Shown here: positions 4,684-59,926 of the stretch, in pieces
How positions within the stretch are numbered: position 1 is the stretch's first letter
Layout of the letters: each line of letters begins with the position of its first letter
NCBI GenBank assembly: GCA_903895995.1
Contig: CAITVX010000039.1
Coordinates: 1 to 64,000 of the forward strand
Length of the DNA stretch: 64,000 bases
From: an uncultured Actinomycetes bacterium
GTDB lineage: Bacteria; Actinomycetota; Actinomycetes; Nanopelagicales; Nanopelagicaceae
Direction: 5' to 3'
The notes under the pieces: generated by a model
Databases searched by the model: none
Told to the model about the DNA's origin: nothing
The model's input: the letters and a program-made list of their open reading frames with translations, nothing else
Made by a program: the position numbers and the translations under genes

Positions 4684-7600
4684 TTAAGAGACGGGTTCGT
4701 TCTCACGCAGACGCTGTGAGATAACTTCAGAGACGCCATCGCCGCGCATAGTCACGCCATAGAGAGCATCCGCAATCTCCATAGTGCGCTTCTGGTGAGT
4801 GATAATAATCAGCTGTGACTTCTCACGAAGCTCTTCAAAGACTCCAAGAAGTCTTCCTAGGTTTGTATCATCGAGAGCTGCCTCAACCTCATCCATGACG
4901 TAGAACGGACTTGGGCGTGCCTTAAAGATCGCAACGAGCATCGCGACTGCTACGAGAGAACGTTCTCCGCCAGAGAGAAGGGATAGGCGCTTAACACGCT
5001 TTCCTGGTGGGCGAGCTTCTACATCGACGCCAGAGTTCATTAGATCATCTGGGTTTGTGAGAATCAGACGACCTTCACCACCCGGGAATAGTCGTGCGAA
5101 GATTCCACGGAATTCACGTTCAGTGTCTAGGTAGGCCTGATAGAAGATCTCTTGGACCTTGTCATCAACTTCTTTGACAATATCGAGAAGATCTTTCTTC
5201 GTCTTCTTGAGATCCTCTAGTTGTTCGGCGAGATATTTCAAACGCTCTTCAAGTGCGTTGTACTCTTCAAGTGCAAGAGGGTTGATCTTTCCAAGCATCG
5301 CGAGAGCACGTTCTGCTTGTACCAATCGCTTCTCTTGTTGGTCACGGCGATACGGGATGAGATCTCCTGGGACCCAATTGCCTTCTTCATCTTCAATATA
5401 TGTTGGGACATCATTCTCTGGTCCATACTCAGCAAGAAGTGTTGTGACATCGACGCCGAGCTCTTCGATCGAGCGGGACTCAAGGCCTTCGATACGAAGT
5501 CTCTGCTCTGCTCGAGCAATCTCATCGCGGTGCACGCTAGAAGTAAGCGCTTCAAGTTCGGTCGTTAATTCACGACTACGACCACGAACAGTGAGGATCT
5601 CTCCTTCGCGTTCTGTGCGTGCAGCTTCTAACCGTTGTCTCTCGGCCAGCGCCTTTGATATGGATACTTCAATTTGAATAAGAGTCTCGTAAGCGGTATC
5701 TGCGATGGCTTGCGCAGTTGCGGCAGCGACCGAACGTTGCTCGCGACGAGTGATTGCACGAGAAGCGCTCTCGCGTTCATATGCAGCTGAATCTTCTAAG
5801 CTCTTCGCGCGAGCAGCGATCGCAGTGATGCGCTCTTCAAGTGTGCGAAGTTCAAGTCGTGCTTCAACTTCAGTAGAGCGAGCTCCTGAAACTTGTGAGC
5901 GCAGATCTTCTAGGTGGGTGAAATCTGGTTCTGCAGGTGCTTGATGAGATTCAAATTGTTCGATCGCTGCAGCCAAGTCACGCTCATCATTAGCGCGCTG
6001 CTCTGAAGCTTCGCGCTCGGTTTGAGAAAGGCGTTCCACTTCGGCTTGAGCGCTCTTTACATTTTGTCCGGCAACAGCCATCTGCTCAGCAAGGCCAGAC
6101 ATCTTTGCATCAGAGTCATTAAGCCTGGCAAGAGTTTGATCATGTGCGGTACGAGCAGCATCAACATCATTGCCAAGTCGTGCCAATTCAAAGGTGAGGG
6201 ATTCACAACGTGAAGTGATCTGATCTAAATCGCGTTGCGTGCGCTCTAAGAGCGCATTGATCTCAATCGCAGATTGTGAGCCAGCAGATCCACCGCGAGC
6301 ACGGCTTCGGCTGATCAAGTCACCATCGCGTGTTACTGCAATGAGCGTGCGATCGGCATGAATGGCCGCCTCTGCATCGGCGAGAGTCTCTACCGCAACA
6401 AATTTTGCAAGAAGTGCTCCAAGGAGAGCATCTATTCCATTTGTTGAGATAACCGATGTAAGTCGTGTGAGCCCTGCAGGAATTGCGCTCTGCTCAGAAG
6501 TGTTCTCGCCATCAATGACAAGCAGCTCTGAACGTCCACCCGCTTGAGCCTTTAACATTCCAAGCGCGCTAACTGCAGAACCGAGATCTTCAACGACGAT
6601 TGAATCAGCTAGCGGACCAAGTGCTGCAGCTACGGCAGCTTCCCATCCAGCAGAGATCGTCATGAGTGATGCAAGGCGACCTTTGACTCGTGCAGAACTA
6701 CGACCGGCGAGAATTGCTTCTCCCCCATCACGATGCATCAGGGATTCCTGCAGCGCTGCTAAGCGAGAAGTAAGACCAGCCTTTTCGCGCGCCGCTCCTT
6801 GTTCATCTTCTTGAAGCTTTGAGAATTTCTCTTGCAACTCATTGAGCGCAGCTTTCGCACGTTCGTAATGTGAATCCAGATCTGGCTCTGATGCATCTAA
6901 GCCTGCAATCTCTCCTTCGAGTGCGGCGAAGTCGCCACGGAATTGTTTCAAACGTTCAGATGCTGCATCGCGCGATGCTGTCAGACGGGCAATTTCAGCA
7001 TTTGTCGCATCGATGCGAGAACGCAGCCCATTGATATGGCCTTCCTGGCGAGCAGTTCCTTCTCGTTGATCAGCGATCGCACGAAGGGATGCGCTAACCC
7101 GGTTCTCTTCGAGGGAGAGTTGGGACTCTAATTCGTGCAGCTTCGATGTGATCGAGGCGAGTGATGTCGCAGACTCAGAAAGTACTGTTCGAAGTGAATT
7201 CTCTTCAGCGCGAAGAGATTGTGACTCTTCTTCCATTGCGACTGGATCGCGTCCAGCAGCCCGCGCCTCATCGCCATCTTCGGAGAGGAAACGTGCTCGC
7301 TCAGATGAGAGAGATTGCACTCCACGGAATTTTTCACGCTGAGCTGTGAGCTGATAGAAATTCTCTTGCGCTTTTACGAGTAGCGGATTCTCTTGAGCGC
7401 TCTGTTGATCAAGTTCTTCTTCACGAGAGCGAGCCTGGTGGAGCGCAGCTTCAACCTCATCACGGCGAGCTCGCAAGACAGTCTCGTCCGCAACCTCTGC
7501 ATCAACGGTTGATTTAAGTTGCAAGAGATCATCTGCCAGAAGTCGTAGACGTGAATCACGTACATCTGATTGAATCGTCGACGCTTTACGTGCAACTTGA

Positions 7601-8226
7601 GCTTGTTTACCAAGCGGCTTGAGGTTGCGACGAAGTTCGACTGTGAGATCTTGAATTCGAGAAAGGTTGCCTTGCATTGAATCGAGTTTGCGAAGAGCTT
7701 TCTCTTTGCGCTTACGGTGCTTGAGTACGCCTGCTGCTTCTTCAATAAATGCACGACGCTCTTCAGGATTTGCAAGGAGAATTGCATCAAGTTGGCCTTG
7801 ACCAACGATCACGTGCATCTCGCGACCGATGCCACTATCGCTCAGCAACTCTTGGATATCAAGAAGACGTGTTGTCTCGCCATTTAAAAGATACTCTGAT
7901 GTTCCATTTCTAAAGAGAACACGGCTGATCGTCACCTCAGTGAAATCAATGGGAAGTGTCTGGTCGGTGTTATCAATAGTCACTGATACTTCAGCGCGGC
8001 CAAGAGGTGCACGCCCAGATGTGCCGGCAAAGATGACATCTTCCATCTTTCCGCCACGCAGAGATTTAGCCCCCTGCTCGCCCATCACCCATGAGAGGCC
8101 ATCGAGAACATTCGATTTGCCAGAACCATTGGGGCCAACAACGCATGTAATGCCTGGTTCAAAATTGAGGGTGGTCGAAGATGCGAAGGATTTAAATCCC
8201 TTGAGAGTGACGCTCTTCAAATACAC
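4684..8226 (-). CDS. smc: Chromosome segregation protein SMC
   Basis: This is a full-length 1180-residue SMC ATPase, which forms dimers that compact and segregate chromosomes. Walker A is GPNGSGKSN (31-39). Long coiled coils rich in Glu, Arg, Ala and Leu flank a hinge at roughly 490-660 (VKGRLASLMTISAGWEAAVAAAL region). The C-terminal head carries the ABC signature LSGGERSL and Walker B FYVMDEVEAALDD. It starts at GTG 8226, which follows a TAGGTT box by 7 nt with no Shine-Dalgarno. The downstream ftsY gene follows at once, and rnc ends 73 bp upstream, which matches the mycobacterial rnc-smc-ftsY order. No ScpA or ScpB gene is in the window. Confidence 0.97.
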   Translation of the reverse strand: MYLKSVTLKGFKSFASSTTLNFEPGITCVVGPNGSGKSNVLDGLSWVMGEQGAKSLRGGKMEDVIFAGTSGRAPLGRAEVSVTIDNTDQTLPIDFTEVTISRVLFRNGTSEYLLNGETTRLLDIQELLSDSGIGREMHVIVGQGQLDAILLANPEERRAFIEEAAGVLKHRKRKEKALRKLDSMQGNLSRIQDLTVELRRNLKPLGKQAQVARKASTIQSDVRDSRLRLLADDLLQLKSTVDAEVADETVLRARRDEVEAALHQARSREEELDQQSAQENPLLVKAQENFYQLTAQREKFRGVQSLSSERARFLSEDGDEARAAGRDPVAMEEESQSLRAEENSLRTVLSESATSLASITSKLHELESQLSLEENRVSASLRAIADQREGTARQEGHINGLRSRIDATNAEIARLTASRDAASERLKQFRGDFAALEGEIAGLDASEPDLDSHYERAKAALNELQEKFSKLQEDEQGAAREKAGLTSRLAALQESLMHRDGGEAILAGRSSARVKGRLASLMTISAGWEAAVAAALGPLADSIVVEDLGSAVSALGMLKAQAGGRSELLVIDGENTSEQSAIPAGLTRLTSVISTNGIDALLGALLAKFVAVETLADAEAAIHADRTLIAVTRDGDLISRSRARGGSAGSQSAIEINALLERTQRDLDQITSRCESLTFELARLGNDVDAARTAHDQTLARLNDSDAKMSGLAEQMAVAGQNVKSAQAEVERLSQTEREASEQRANDERDLAAAIEQFESHQAPAEPDFTHLEDLRSQVSGARSTEVEARLELRTLEERITAIAARAKSLEDSAAYERESASRAITRREQRSVAAATAQAIADTAYETLIQIEVSISKALAERQRLEAARTEREGEILTVRGRSRELTTELEALTSSVHRDEIARAEQRLRIEGLESRSIEELGVDVTTLLAEYGPENDVPTYIEDEEGNWVPGDLIPYRRDQQEKRLVQAERALAMLGKINPLALEEYNALEERLKYLAEQLEDLKKTKKDLLDIVKEVDDKVQEIFYQAYLDTEREFRGIFARLFPGGEGRLILTNPDDLMNSGVDVEARPPGKRVKRLSLLSGGERSLVAVAMLVAIFKARPSPFYVMDEVEAALDDTNLGRLLGVFEELREKSQLIIITHQKRTMEIADALYGVTMRGDGVSEVISQRLRENEPVS

Positions 8227-8233
8227 GTGGGAA

Positions 8234-8239
8234 AACCTA
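8234..8239 (-). promoter_or_regulatory. -10 box of a leaderless smc transcript
   Basis: TAGGTT lies 7 nt before the smc GTG, in the rnc-smc gap, and no Shine-Dalgarno is visible. Confidence 0.45.
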
Positions 8240-8299
8240 TCGGCAAAGTGGTTCGACTCCTAAAAGCGGCACACCTCAAGCAAAGGTTGAGAGTTTTGA

Positions 8300-8983
8300 T
8301 TAACGAGCAGAGATTGCGTCGTACGCTAACTTTGCTGCGATCTGTTCTGCTTCTCGCTTGCTCTTACCGAAACCCTGCGAAAATTTTTCTCCGGAGAGAA
8401 TTGCAAGAGCAGTGAAACTTTTATCGTGATCAGGGCCAAATTCTGTGATCTCATATTCAGGGCCATTTAATCCGCGAGCAGAAGCTAACTCTTGAAGCGC
8501 GGTCTTGCTATCAAGGTTTGCCCCTTCAGCGGTTGCTGCGGTGAGGGCGCTTTCGCACCATCGCAGAACGACCTTCGCTGTTGCGGTGTAGCCGTGCTCA
8601 ATATAGATAGCACCGACGAGAGCTTCAAGGGAGTCGGCGAGAAGTGAGTTCTTATCTCGGCCCCCGGTTGCTTCTTCGCCCTTGCCGATTCGCAAGTATT
8701 GACCCAGCGCTAATTCACGGGCGATGGTCGCTAGGGCTTTGGTGTTTACAACGCTAGAACGCAGCGGAGATAACTTACTTTCATCCAAATCTGGATAACG
8801 TTCGAAGAGGGCTTCAGTAATTAAAAGTCCAAGAACAGAGTCGCCTAAGAATTCAAGGCGTTCATTTGTTGGGGTTCCGCCATTTTCATAAGAGAAAGAG
8901 CGGTGAGTGAGAGCTAATTGCAGCAACTCATCCTTGACCGATATTCCGAGTGCTTCGGTAAGTTCGGTAAGGAGCGAGTTCAG
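8300..8983 (-). CDS. rnc: Ribonuclease III, probable CTG start
   Basis: RNase III cuts double-stranded RNA in rRNA and mRNA processing. The catalytic signature NERLEFLGDSVLGLLI is near the N-terminus, and the double-stranded RNA binding domain fills the C-terminal 70 residues (KTALQELASARGLNGPEYEI to KREAEQIAAKLAYDAI). The first standard start in frame is TTG at 8926, but this would begin at LLQLALTHRSF, inside the first conserved helix. The frame continues upstream with family-like sequence (LTEALGISVKDELL), and the only candidate there is CTG at 8983, which has GAGG 6 nt upstream and sits 2 nt past the rpmF stop. From CTG the protein has 227 residues, normal for the family. The start assignment is inference. 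Confidence 0.9.
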   Translation of the reverse strand: MNSLLTELTEALGISVKDELLQLALTHRSFSYENGGTPTNERLEFLGDSVLGLLITEALFERYPDLDESKLSPLRSSVVNTKALATIARELALGQYLRIGKGEEATGGRDKNSLLADSLEALVGAIYIEHGYTATAKVVLRWCESALTAATAEGANLDSKTALQELASARGLNGPEYEITEFGPDHDKSFTALAILSGEKFSQGFGKSKREAEQIAAKLAYDAISAR

Positions 8984-8984
8984 A

Positions 8985-9158
8985 TCAGACCTCGAGGACC
9001 TGACGACGGTTATAAGTACCGCATGTTGGGCATGCAGTGTGCTGAAGCTTTGGTGACTGGCACTGTCCGCATGTTGCTACAGCTGCAGGGGTGGTCTTCC
9101 ATGAGCTACGACGGGTACGCGTACGAGAACGCGACATCTTTCGCTTTGGTACTGGCAT
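8985..9158 (-). CDS. rpmF: 50S ribosomal protein L32
   Basis: This 57-residue gene begins MPVPKRKMSRSRTRTRR, the L32 N-terminus, and has two CxxC pairs, CGQC (30-33) and CPTC (43-46), that make a zinc ribbon. It lies between the DUF177 gene and rnc, which is the usual actinobacterial and proteobacterial context for rpmF. The start ATG at 9158 follows AAGGAGTCGGCC, a good Shine-Dalgarno. The stop overlaps the region where rnc should begin, so the two genes are probably translationally coupled. Confidence 0.96.
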   Translation of the reverse strand: MPVPKRKMSRSRTRTRRSSWKTTPAAVATCGQCQSPKLQHTACPTCGTYNRRQVLEV

Positions 9159-9853: not shown

Positions 9854-10348
9854 TTACTCTCCTAATTCAGAGAGGATATGTTTATCTTCTACACCTTGCA
9901 ATTTATCGCGGCCACGTTGGACAACATCGAGAGTCTTATTCAAAATAACTTCAAGGGTAGCTAGACGTGAATCGATATAAGCCTCAATCTCATCGCGCTC
10001 TTTACGAGCCTCTTCCTCAACTTCATCCAGGATGCGTTGGGCTTCTTTACGAGCAGCAGAGACGATCTCGGTTTGTTCAACCATGAGCGCGACTTCTTCG
10101 CGAGCATGAATGATTAACTGATCAGCGCTCACACGAGCCTCTTCAAGAATTGATTCACGAGTCGAGATAATCTCTTGAGCATGAGCAAGGTCAACAGGCA
10201 GAGCTTCGCGAGCTTCGTCAAGGACTTCAAGGAGTTCGCCTCTATGGATAACACAGCTTGCAGAGAGTGGCACGCCACGAGCATCTTCTACTGCAGTGAT
10301 CGCACTCTGGATACGTTCAACAACTGTCATAACTTGCTGTGAATCCAT
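9854..10348 (-). CDS. sepIVA: SepIVA/DivIVA-like septation coiled-coil protein
   Basis: This is a 164-residue, almost wholly alpha-helical protein with long charged heptads (EEARVSADQLIIHAREEVAL and KEAQRILDEVEEEARKERDE), which indicate a coiled coil. It matches the actinobacterial SepIVA group by its place directly upstream of DUF177-rpmF-rnc and its size; mycobacterial SepIVA acts in septation and envelope growth. The start ATG has GAGGT 6 nt upstream (GAGGTATCTG). It overlaps no neighbour, and its last codons supply the Shine-Dalgarno of the DUF177 gene. An alternative label seen for such proteins is ATP synthase subunit b-like, a coiled-coil artefact. Confidence 0.8.
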   Translation of the reverse strand: MDSQQVMTVVERIQSAITAVEDARGVPLSASCVIHRGELLEVLDEAREALPVDLAHAQEIISTRESILEEARVSADQLIIHAREEVALMVEQTEIVSAARKEAQRILDEVEEEARKERDEIEAYIDSRLATLEVILNKTLDVVQRGRDKLQGVEDKHILSELGE

Positions 10349-54285: not shown

Positions 54286-54900
54286 TCAATAACCAACTTG
54301 TTTAGGGATCTCCCCAGATTTCGCAAGGAGCTTTGCAACAGCCGATGCGGGAGATTTATCTTTACCAGCCTTCCATGCATCAAGGTATGGCCACGGGTAG
54401 AGCTCACCACGACGTACCCACCAAATATTGGTACCTGATGGAGTGGGCCAGCTGATTCCAAAATGCACATGCGGTGCAAGTCCCTTTGAATCCCCTGTAG
54501 CGCCGAGATAGCCAATGACATCACCAGCGATTACATGGAGACCAGGAACCATTGCAGCAGGAATTTTTGAAAGATGAGAACCGTAATAGCGAACTCCATC
54601 ATCGCCGATCATTGAGATAAATAACCCACCGCGATCTGCACCAAGGTTCGTCTTCCAAGTAAATCGGTCGACCCGATTCACTTCATCGATTACACCAGAG
54701 GTAGGTGCGACAAATTTGCAGCCCTTCGGCGCCAAAATATCTGTGGCCGGATAATTATGATGAGAATGTGCGTAGGTGACTTTGCACCCCTGGACGGGAA
54801 ATATGTAATTTGGTGCAGCTTGCGCAGAAATAGTGGTGCTTAAAATTGCCGGCACGGCGAGAATTACGCTCAAGAATTTTTTCATCCTGTGACGTAGCAT
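54286..54900 (-). CDS. Secreted M23-family (LytM-type) peptidase
   Basis: This 204-residue exported protein has a signal peptide (MKKFLSVILAVPAILSTT, cut near SAQAA). The zinc site of M23 peptidases is visible in HHNYPATDILAPKG (HxxxD) and GLAPHVHFGISW (HxH). Such enzymes cut peptidoglycan cross-bridges in growth or division. ATG 54900 and ATG 54885 are both possible starts; TATAGAT upstream suggests a very short leader. Confidence 0.88.
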   Translation of the reverse strand: MLRHRMKKFLSVILAVPAILSTTISAQAAPNYIFPVQGCKVTYAHSHHNYPATDILAPKGCKFVAPTSGVIDEVNRVDRFTWKTNLGADRGGLFISMIGDDGVRYYGSHLSKIPAAMVPGLHVIAGDVIGYLGATGDSKGLAPHVHFGISWPTPSGTNIWWVRRGELYPWPYLDAWKAGKDKSPASAVAKLLAKSGEIPKQVGY

Positions 54901-54927: not shown

Positions 54928-55001
54928 GGGGCGGTAGCTCAGTTGGTTAGAGCCCGGAACTCATAATTCCGTCGTCGTCGGTTCGAGCCCGACCCGCCCC
55001 A
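54928..55001 (+). tRNA. tRNA-Met (CAT), elongator type or Ile2
   Basis: The cloverleaf has a GGGGCGG/CCGCCCC acceptor stem, an anticodon stem CGGAA/TTCCG with loop CTCATAA (anticodon CAT) and a T-arm GTCGG/CCGAC around TTCGAGC. The paired first base excludes initiator tRNA. It could be tRNA-Ile2 with a modified C34; sequence alone does not decide. CCA is not encoded. Its 3' half is repeated at 57714-57755. Confidence 0.92.
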
Positions 55002-55037
55002 CTTCAAGCAAATGCCTCGAACTTGGAATTCTTCGAG

Positions 55038-56051
55038 TTACTCAACAATGTTTTGAGAATTCGAAATTATCCATCTTGTAGTTGCGCTATAAGTTTCACC
55101 AGGATTAAGCCTTATTGATGGGAAATTTTCATGATTAGGTGCGTCAGGAAACCCCTGACATTCCAGGGCTAATCCCGCCCGCTGCACGTATCCCAATCCC
55201 GAAGTACCAATCTGTGTGCCATTGAAATGATTACCTCCATAAAGTTGAAAGGCTGGTTGATCACTTTCAACGCTAAGAGTTAGGCCATCAGGTGAGACCA
55301 ATTGGCAATGTTCTCTAAGTCCCACGCCATCAATGACAAAGTTGTGATCGAATCCTCCATTACGGTCTATTCCATCACTGAAGCAATCAGCGTGTGCAAT
55401 CCCAAACTTTTTACCACCTCTGAAATCTGCGGCCGTATTTGTTACATCACGAATCTCACCTGTAGGAATACCATCAGGATGGTTCGGTGTATAACGTGAT
55501 GCATTGATTTTCAGGGTATGTTCATCGATAGATCCCGACGTCTCACCTAAAAGGTTGAAGTACGGGTGTGTTGTCATGTTTACTACGGTTGGCTTGTCTG
55601 TAACTGCTGTATAGGTGACTTGTGCACCATTCGCTAATAGTTCATAACGCGCCTTGGCTTTTACCTCACCTGGAAACCCTTGGTCACCGTCAGGACTGAC
55701 GAGCGACAACTCAACACATTCATCAGATTTATCCTCTACACGCCAATATTGTGAATGAAACCCACTGCTCCCACCGTGGAGTTGGTTCGGTGCTTCATTT
55801 ATTTCCAAAGAATAAGAGTCGCCCTCTAATTCAAATTTACCTTTTCCAAGGCGATTAGCCACTCTGCCCACAGTCATTCCAACGTATAAATTACTGGTGA
55901 GGTAATCACTTATTTGATGCGATCCGAGAATTACGTTACGCCAAGTATCGTCTGGAAGCCGCACACTAAATCTGCACATCGTCGCACCCAAGTTGAGAAT
56001 TTCTAACTCAAATTTCTCATTCCTCAGCAAAATGAGCTCGGGTCGACTCAT
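55038..56051 (-). CDS. galM: Aldose 1-epimerase (galactose mutarotase)
   Basis: This 337-residue mutarotase interconverts alpha and beta sugar anomers. The motifs are NQLHGGSSGFHSQYW, MTTHPYFNLLGE with the catalytic His, and ALECQGFPDAPNHENFP with the catalytic Glu region. It overlaps the UPF0303 gene by 4 nt, so the three island genes form one operon read towards tRNA-Met. The family fixes the reaction, but the sugar used is unknown. Confidence 0.93.
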   Translation of the reverse strand: MSRPELILLRNEKFELEILNLGATMCRFSVRLPDDTWRNVILGSHQISDYLTSNLYVGMTVGRVANRLGKGKFELEGDSYSLEINEAPNQLHGGSSGFHSQYWRVEDKSDECVELSLVSPDGDQGFPGEVKAKARYELLANGAQVTYTAVTDKPTVVNMTTHPYFNLLGETSGSIDEHTLKINASRYTPNHPDGIPTGEIRDVTNTAADFRGGKKFGIAHADCFSDGIDRNGGFDHNFVIDGVGLREHCQLVSPDGLTLSVESDQPAFQLYGGNHFNGTQIGTSGLGYVQRAGLALECQGFPDAPNHENFPSIRLNPGETYSATTRWIISNSQNIVE

Positions 56052-56581
56052 AAAGTACTATCTTTTGAAGGATCGATCTTTCCTTGAATCTCTCTGTATT
56101 TTTTCAATACTTCCACCACGAATGCGTGATCAATATCGTGTCGAAGTCCTGAAACAGTCACAGTACCTACGATTCCCGTATCAGAAATTAAGATTGGGAC
56201 ACTGCCGCCACTTCCTGAATAGCGCGTTACATCCATCCAAGGAGCTGTTTCAAGAGAGTATGGTGGATCAAAGATTGGGAACCGGAGTCCGACCAAGTAA
56301 CTACTGCATCCCCACTCACGAGCTGTTGCCTTTTTTCGTTCTATCCACTTGTTATTGTGAGCAGAGGTCCCTCTTAGCGAAGTATGGAAGACTCGTTGCT
56401 CACCCAGTGATATCTCGATAGCAATTGCGTGACCACGGTTGGTTGCCTCGCTACGTAATAAGCAGCCAAGATTCCATGCATCGTCTATATCGAATCTCTG
56501 AAATGTCAGGCTAGTCTCTTCTTTGACAATTTTTTCAATATCTTCCGGTGCTAGGTGATCTTCATTCTTATTACTCACCAC
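56048..56581 (-). CDS. UPF0303 family (heme-degrading/flavodoxin-like fold) protein
   Basis: This 177-residue UPF0303 protein has IEISLGEQRVFHTSLRGTS, NNKWIERKKATA and a glycine-rich YSGSGGSVPILI. Relatives are linked to small-molecule or heme-like handling and are often next to aldo-keto reductases or sugar enzymes; no reaction is established. It overlaps both neighbours and is part of the island operon. Confidence 0.85.
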   Translation of the reverse strand: MVSNKNEDHLAPEDIEKIVKEETSLTFQRFDIDDAWNLGCLLRSEATNRGHAIAIEISLGEQRVFHTSLRGTSAHNNKWIERKKATAREWGCSSYLVGLRFPIFDPPYSLETAPWMDVTRYSGSGGSVPILISDTGIVGTVTVSGLRHDIDHAFVVEVLKKYREIQGKIDPSKDSTL

Positions 56582-57561
56582 TTACCTCCAATTTGCGGAG
56601 CAATAAGCTCATTATAAATTTCTGCAATCTCAGATTTCATTTCGCTACTCAAAGGTGAAATTTGGGCAGCTCTGACATTTGCCTTTGCTTGCTCTCCGCT
56701 TCTGGCACCAGGAATTACGGTCGTGATACCTGATTGATCGATTATCCAACGCAGAGCAAATTCAGCCATTGTCACACCCTCTGGAATCATATGAGAAATT
56801 CGACGAACTGCTTCAAGCCCGATATCGAAATCTACTCCAGCAAAAGTTTCACCAATGTCGAAGGCCTTACCTTCACGGTTATAATTTCTATGATCATTTT
56901 CTGGGAAAGTAGTATGTGCGTCGTATTTTCCGGAAAGAAGTCCACTTGCTAATGGAACTCTTGCAATGATGCTTACATCCGCAGCCAACGCTGCAGGCAA
57001 AACCTCCGCTAATGGAGCTTGTCTGAGCATGTTAAATACAATCTGAACGCTCTCTACATTCGGTCTCGCTATCGCAGCCAGCGCCTCTGCTCTAGTTTCC
57101 ACGCTAAAGCCATACGCTGAAATTCGGCCATCGTCGATGAAGGAATCTAAGATTTCAAATAGTTTGTCATCGTGATAAACCGAGCTGGGTGGGCAATGGA
57201 GCTGAACAAGATCTAATGTATCAACCTGCAGATTCTTGCGAGAACGATCAATCCAGTTACGAAGATTTTCAAGGTTATATAGTTCAGGAGATTGGGGCAT
57301 CACGCGCCTGCCAACTTTGGTTCCTACAACAACGTCATTAATTTTTCGAGATGTGAGAAATGTGGAAATGAGTTGTTCGCTTCGGCCATCACCATATGCA
57401 TCGGCAGTATCAAAAAATCTGACTCCGCTCTCGTACGCGGCATCAAGCACCTTTAAAGCATCAGACTCTGTTACTTCTCCCCAATCGGCACCTAGCTGCC
57501 ATGTCCCAAGGCCAACCACCGGAATCGACTTATTCGACTTACCTAGTTTTCGTAACTCCAC
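56575..57561 (-). CDS. Aldo/keto reductase
   Basis: This 328-residue AKR reduces carbonyls with NADPH. The catalytic set is visible: Asp and Tyr in FDTADAYGDGRSE, Lys in VVGTKVGRR and His in VQLHCPPSS. The SGITTVIPGARSGEQAKAN end is the cofactor loop. The start is GTG 57561 with GAGGA 5 nt upstream. It leads the three-gene island operon; the AKR-UPF0303-mutarotase mix suggests catabolism of an unusual aldose. Confidence 0.92.
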   Translation of the reverse strand: MELRKLGKSNKSIPVVGLGTWQLGADWGEVTESDALKVLDAAYESGVRFFDTADAYGDGRSEQLISTFLTSRKINDVVVGTKVGRRVMPQSPELYNLENLRNWIDRSRKNLQVDTLDLVQLHCPPSSVYHDDKLFEILDSFIDDGRISAYGFSVETRAEALAAIARPNVESVQIVFNMLRQAPLAEVLPAALAADVSIIARVPLASGLLSGKYDAHTTFPENDHRNYNREGKAFDIGETFAGVDFDIGLEAVRRISHMIPEGVTMAEFALRWIIDQSGITTVIPGARSGEQAKANVRAAQISPLSSEMKSEIAEIYNELIAPQIGGKW

Positions 57562-57713
57562 GCGATTCCTCTATTTCTCCACTACCGTTAGCGAATTAGA
57601 GGAAGTATATGGTTCTGTAAATTGAGGGGTCAAGTAACTACATTTACGAAATCTTCTTTGTTATATCGCCAAATCTAATGTTGAAAAATAATTCGAAGAC
57701 CGATGTGGGTGAA
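57562..57713. other. AT-rich intergenic stretch at the island edge
   Basis: No gene was seen. It holds the ribosome binding site of the aldo-keto reductase gene and runs into the tRNA-like copy. Confidence 0.4.
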
Positions 57714-57755
57714 TCACAATTGCGTCGTCGTCGCTTCTAGCCCGATCCTCCCCAC
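57714..57755 (+). repeat. Degenerate copy of the tRNA-Met 3' half (att-like)
   Basis: The copy matches 54961-55002 at 36 of 42 bases. It covers the anticodon-stem end, variable region, T-arm and acceptor end. It cannot fold as a complete tRNA, since the 5' half is missing. It sits 5 bp past the katG stop. Confidence 0.8.
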
Positions 57756-57760
57756 CAGAG

Positions 57761-59926
<2,166 letters not shown>

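Follow-up and report, generated by a model that had tools for sequence, protein, structure and literature searches.

Streamlined freshwater actinobacteria are abundant and show few visible mobile elements. Among the streamlined aquatic actinobacteria of the Ca. Actinomarinales, additive flexible genomic islands are built from cassettes that are targeted to tRNA genes and exchanged between genera; the tRNAs lie mainly in the cell-envelope island, and those for Asp, Ile, Phe and Glu are named there (PMC7771536). In the Methylophilaceae, 20-bp repeats of tRNA-Lys(ctt) recur in an additive island, and a tRNA-Met tycheposon is also described (PMC10872708). The element under study here is a 2.7-kb cassette of three genes, encoding an aldo/keto reductase (AKR), a UPF0303 protein and a galM-like aldose 1-epimerase. 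It lies between a tRNA-Met gene and katG within a stretch of 64,000 nucleotides, hereafter the window, which comprises bases 1–64000 of contig 39 of an uncultured Nanopelagicaceae genome (G000; 1,357,352 bases in 39 contigs; relatives are likewise referred to by G numbers and their loci or contigs by L numbers). The island in the window is a further case of a known kind, the tRNA-targeted cassettes of additive genomic islands.

Unlike the cassettes of the Ca. Actinomarinales, that of the window sits at tRNA-Met, carries metabolic cargo and recurs at tRNA-Lys in a second species. It shares with the Methylophilaceae the use of tRNA-Met and the tRNA-end repeats that mark stacked insertions, whereas the tycheposon is far larger and has an xerD-type recombinase, which the window cassette lacks. 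Temperate actinophages whose attP matches a tRNA 3′ half have this tail too, beginning in the anticodon arm and situated close to a tyrosine integrase, but the window cassette has neither phage genes nor an integrase. A further likeness is to the group B katG of the Nanopelagicales, which is always found near a tRNA and for which horizontal transfer has been proposed; in the window, katG stands beside tRNA-Met, and tRNA 3′-half repeats are not described in the portion of that account drawn on here (PMC7527133). With its empty site in relatives, its cargo found again at a second tRNA and the matching tail of viral contigs near an integrase, the locus illustrates how single metabolic operons are gained and lost at fixed tRNA sites. 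Insertions of this kind are an ordinary form of gene exchange, and many related species hold other guest genes at this spot.

The tRNA-Met site and its contents

Site-specific recombination very probably placed the cassette at the 3′ half of tRNA-Met, a hotspot that is used repeatedly, and the enzyme was most likely a trans-acting tyrosine integrase. The initial annotation had likewise read the interval as an island at tRNA-Met, and it is supported in this by the low G+C, by the direct repeat and by relatives in which the site is empty or carries other cargo. The tRNA-Met(CAT) gene, recognized by ARAGORN at 54928–55002 on the plus strand, is the putative attachment site on the attL side and is 100% identical in G003, G012, G015, G017 and G028. 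A degenerate copy of its 3′ half at 57714–57755, the putative and decayed attR, forms a direct repeat at the distal end of the cassette in the same orientation (plus strand), as integration requires; it is followed by CCA, and the 3′ end of katG lies 5 bp from the copy. The 36 of 42 identities reported in the initial annotation were reproduced (86%, tRNA-Met bases 34–75, E 9e-8), and the copy is the sole other tRNA-Met match in the whole of G000. The 41-nt tail of the tRNA (positions 34–74) agrees with the copy at 35/41 positions, against 23/41 at the runner-up place on the plus strand of the window and 28/41 for the best of 300 shuffled tails searched on both strands. Positions 30–75 of the tRNA, running from the anticodon arm to the 3′ end (54957–55002, plus strand), form a block that is also repeated at other islands and in the attP-like tails of phages.

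Between the two copies, open reading frames (ORFs) and Pfam assignments bear out a single overlapping minus-strand operon, in which galM (55038–56051), the UPF0303 gene (56048–56581) and the AKR gene (56575–57561) overlap by 4 and 7 nt. It is preceded by a leader of 106 bp (57562–57667, minus strand) that is conserved with the relative G011. The GalM-like protein matches PF01263 (Aldose_epim, E 9e-78) and scores under the cut-off of the Leloir galM equivalog and over that of a galM subfamily (PRK11055). The UPF0303 protein, which is HbpS-like, belongs to PF03928 and is matched by YBR137W in phmmer (E 3e-10), and the AKR belongs to PF00248 (Aldo_ket_red), has IolS as its nearest solved structure and falls into no close named family. 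Judged from these sequences, an aldose-handling role is likely: the cargo would act on a sugar, with GalM interconverting its anomers and the AKR oxidising or reducing an aldose. By Pfam, the cassette contains just these three genes and no phage or packaging gene; lacking these as well as an integrase, it belongs neither with prophages or phage satellites nor with autonomous integrative elements. Base composition and codon usage were computed for the 56 ORFs in the window that reach 100 aa. The cassette genes have a G+C of 0.440–0.452, compared with a mean of 0.493, and occupy ranks 1, 2 and 3 from the lowest, so that the atypical base composition noted at the outset stands, whereas their codon usage is only mildly unusual (ranks 6, 12 and 13).

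The interval between tRNA-Met and katG differs from relative to relative. It is empty in the sister species G017 and G012, in which 10 bp and 18 bp, respectively, separate the 3′ end of tRNA-Met from the end of a katG that is 87% identical to that of the window; galM, the UPF0303 gene and the AKR gene interrupt this junction in G000. One alpha/beta hydrolase-like gene takes their place in G003 and G015, and a zinc dehydrogenase and a hydrolase in G028. Across the family, the interval that extends to the conserved genes for a 99-aa protein and a GH25 protein holds two genes in G161 and about 8–9 in G280, G149 and G159, and in G281 it holds the same two genes as in G161 together with four others and katG. 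The three genes are therefore not present here in all relatives, the site being empty or otherwise filled, and tRNA-like 3′-half copies recur at the locus in other species; on both counts the island proposed by the initial annotation has withstood the comparison.

These further copies lie 3′ of tRNA-Met in G004, G021, G081, G236 and G257, and one stands at a contig edge in G036. They mostly begin at tRNA positions 29–31, some later, and all reach the 3′ end. Their reciprocals are found in L286 (G262) and L287 (G316), in which tRNA-Met 5′ halves end in the anticodon arm and give way to unrelated sequence. Together, the starts of the 3′-half copies and the ends of the 5′ halves put the crossover within the anticodon arm. 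The cassette would have come into a freshwater Nanopelagicaceae (acI) species when the 3′ half of tRNA-Met underwent site-specific recombination, with strand exchange in that arm at a point that we infer. The incoming copy would rebuild tRNA-Met, and the displaced original 3′ half would come to lie 2.7 kb downstream, beside katG, where it would then mutate. The recombinase would most likely be a tyrosine integrase that acts in trans and stems from a phage or a related element using tRNA-Met.

A sister cassette and the tRNA-Lys site

Among the 296 family genomes, a close relative of the cassette is found in G011 alone, which among 31 congeners is the sole carrier of such an AKR (93% identical). 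The UPF0303 protein is 89% identical in G011 only, the next best match in the 296 family genomes being 34%, and among named GTDB genomes a close UPF0303 gene is again found in G011 only (CAILXX010000013.1, isolate YR3_bin-0378). The cassette DNA of the two genomes is 90.2% identical over 1,671 bp (window 55998 to 57667), including the 106-bp leader. Other proteins of the two genomes are 63% (M23 peptidase), 59% (GH25), 56% (99-aa protein) and 76% (KatG) identical, KatG being a slowly evolving protein.

In G011 the first 23 codons of galM are left, and at most 20 bp past the break the 3′ half of tRNA-Lys(CTT) is repeated over 43 nt (91%, E 6e-13). In both species the galM end of the cassette accordingly abuts the 3′ end of a tRNA, that of Met in G000 and that of Lys in G011. 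The intact tRNA-Lys of G011 lies on a different contig (L269, contig 17), with genes for a tyrosine integrase (PF00589) and an excisionase-like HTH_17 protein behind it. A 490-aa gene on the cassette-bearing contig of G011 is 63% identical to one downstream of tRNA-Lys in G028, and this shared gene suggests that the contig belongs on the 3′ side of tRNA-Lys.

The tRNA-Lys(CTT) gene represents a second hotspot, with the integrase and HTH_17 genes of G011 and partial 3′-half copies in G003 (L271, L272) and G028. The corresponding locus of G000 itself, on contig 5 (L193), is probably a prophage or integrative element: tRNA-Lys at 7581–7654 is followed by an integrase at 7752–9038 and by more ORFs, as yet unplaced, that extend to the end of the contig.

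Candidate recombinases and competing explanations

Three viral contigs (L251, L254 and L255) carry tRNA-Met positions 29/31–75, lacking the 5′ half, and encode tyrosine integrases 0.1–1 kb away. As these integrases are of two distant kinds, two integrase families appear to use tRNA-Met as attB. The genome G000 encodes three tyrosine recombinases, all on other contigs, of which two are XerC/XerD-like and one is a 428-aa phage-type enzyme beside tRNA-Lys. We infer that the cassette was moved in trans by an integrase like those of the viral contigs. Separately, the viral contigs L252, L253 and L256 have a complete tRNA-Met gene, 93–96% identical to that of the host.

Insertion by a trans-acting enzyme has to be set against several observations that weigh on the other side. 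Neither an integrase nor an excisionase lies between 55003 and 57713. A UPF0303 homologue or cassette DNA was not found in the viral contigs and phage records, and a search of plasmids returned just a 68-bp match to the AKR gene at 79%. The 182-bp unit that adjoins tRNA-Met 3′-half copies in G021 and G004 (see below) matches the window and the phage contigs in its tRNA tail alone. The six mismatches in the degenerate copy make the exact recombination point unreadable, and the relatives are mostly fragmented assemblies of separate species, the gain and loss of cargo being deduced from comparison between species only.

The initial annotation had supposed that the island lost its integrase, that is, that the cassette is what remains of a larger autonomous element after deletion of the gene. 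This is unlikely, even though an element of this sort is present at tRNA-Lys in G011, with its tyrosine integrase and HTH_17 excisionase-like gene, and the 428-aa phage-type integrase of G000 also adjoins tRNA-Lys. The cassette encodes no tyrosine recombinase and no integrase fragment remains between the repeats, where the 106-bp leader and the three genes form a compact array free of debris; among ORFs at other fetched tRNA-Met loci, none from the same genus matched these integrases, the exception in the family being G036, of another genus. The other cassettes examined at this site in the same genus also lack an integrase, which makes mobilisation in trans at least as likely as integrase loss.

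Entry by homologous recombination between the flanks, with the tRNA-like copy as an older relic or a decayed tandem duplicate of the tRNA, is a good deal less probable again. Two full tRNA-Met copies do stand 1.25 kb apart in G151, yet the copy in the window has no 5′ half, in which it resembles the copies at other islands and the phage tails that start at positions 29–31 or later, and it lies exactly between the cargo and katG. That the cassette was ancestral in the genus and lost in other species is hardly credible and is already contradicted, for although the AKR and UPF0303 genes also occur in G011, this is one of 31 congeners, the locus is another one, and the DNA is 90% identical compared with 56–64% for three of the four other proteins.

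Neighbouring genes and a conserved unit at other copies

The left neighbour of tRNA-Met, an M23-peptidase gene (54286–54900, minus strand), is conserved in this place in many relatives. On the right, katG (57761–59914, minus strand) is accessory in the family and is often found at tRNA-Met. Of the 296 family genomes, 136 have KatG (61 of the 108 good ones). As counted by comparing positions by eye, its gene lies no more than 15 kb 3′ of tRNA-Met or of a 3′-half copy in at least 28 of the 136 genomes and elsewhere in others. The idea of katG as a fixed right border was dropped in view of this presence and its frequent place in the hotspot; the tRNA-Met to katG interval, by which the initial annotation had framed the island, is not a fixed frame, since katG is itself variable cargo. 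The right border formed by katG is likely an earlier guest. A published account connects the question whether acI strains can be maintained in culture with the patchy distribution of katG and its horizontal transfer (PMC7527133). In G254, G256, G265 and G192, katG is found instead 5′ of the tail, at a distance of about 180 bp.

A unit of 182 bp, made up of 136 bp of noncoding sequence and a 46-bp tRNA-Met tail, stands beside the att copies in G021, G004, G081 and G083, in all of which the tRNA tail flanks both sides. The units of G004, G081 and G083 are 87–91% identical to that of G021, and the unit as a whole (L105:5353–5534, L134, L135, L136, L137, L138, L139, L140) is 87–96% identical across four genera. 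The unit is present in part in G036 and G088, and in G236 and G257 diverged versions preserve the spacing of its inverted repeat, GTGCAC-N5-GTGCAC. A search of the unit against Rfam gave nothing convincing besides the tRNA. An 11-bp match, TCGAGTTACTC, near 55033 was considered as a trace of the unit in the window and rejected as being at chance level. It is conceivable, though on balance doubtful, that tRNA-Met (and tRNA-Lys) of the Nanopelagicaceae host a family of integrase-less cassettes, each with a conserved noncoding end of about 136 bp bearing GTGCAC-N5-GTGCAC and a 46-bp tail. These would be moved in trans by phage-type integrases and would supply metabolic genes including katG, thereby affecting cultivability, and the cassette of the window would count among them as one that has decayed or has a different end.

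The GTGCAC inverted repeat falls at chance-like places in the viral contigs, with the exception of L291, in which it lies 0.27 kb from a tyrosine integrase, in this case with no tRNA-Met tail; this is a weak lead. Two further arrangements were encountered at the tRNA-Met site. In L123 (G016), just tRNA-Met positions 8–32 can be recognized at the usual place (10133–10157), the remainder being missing or diverged. The two tRNA-Met copies of G151 belong to a 1.25-kb tandem duplication (L248) that includes the complete tRNA-Met and two small genes.
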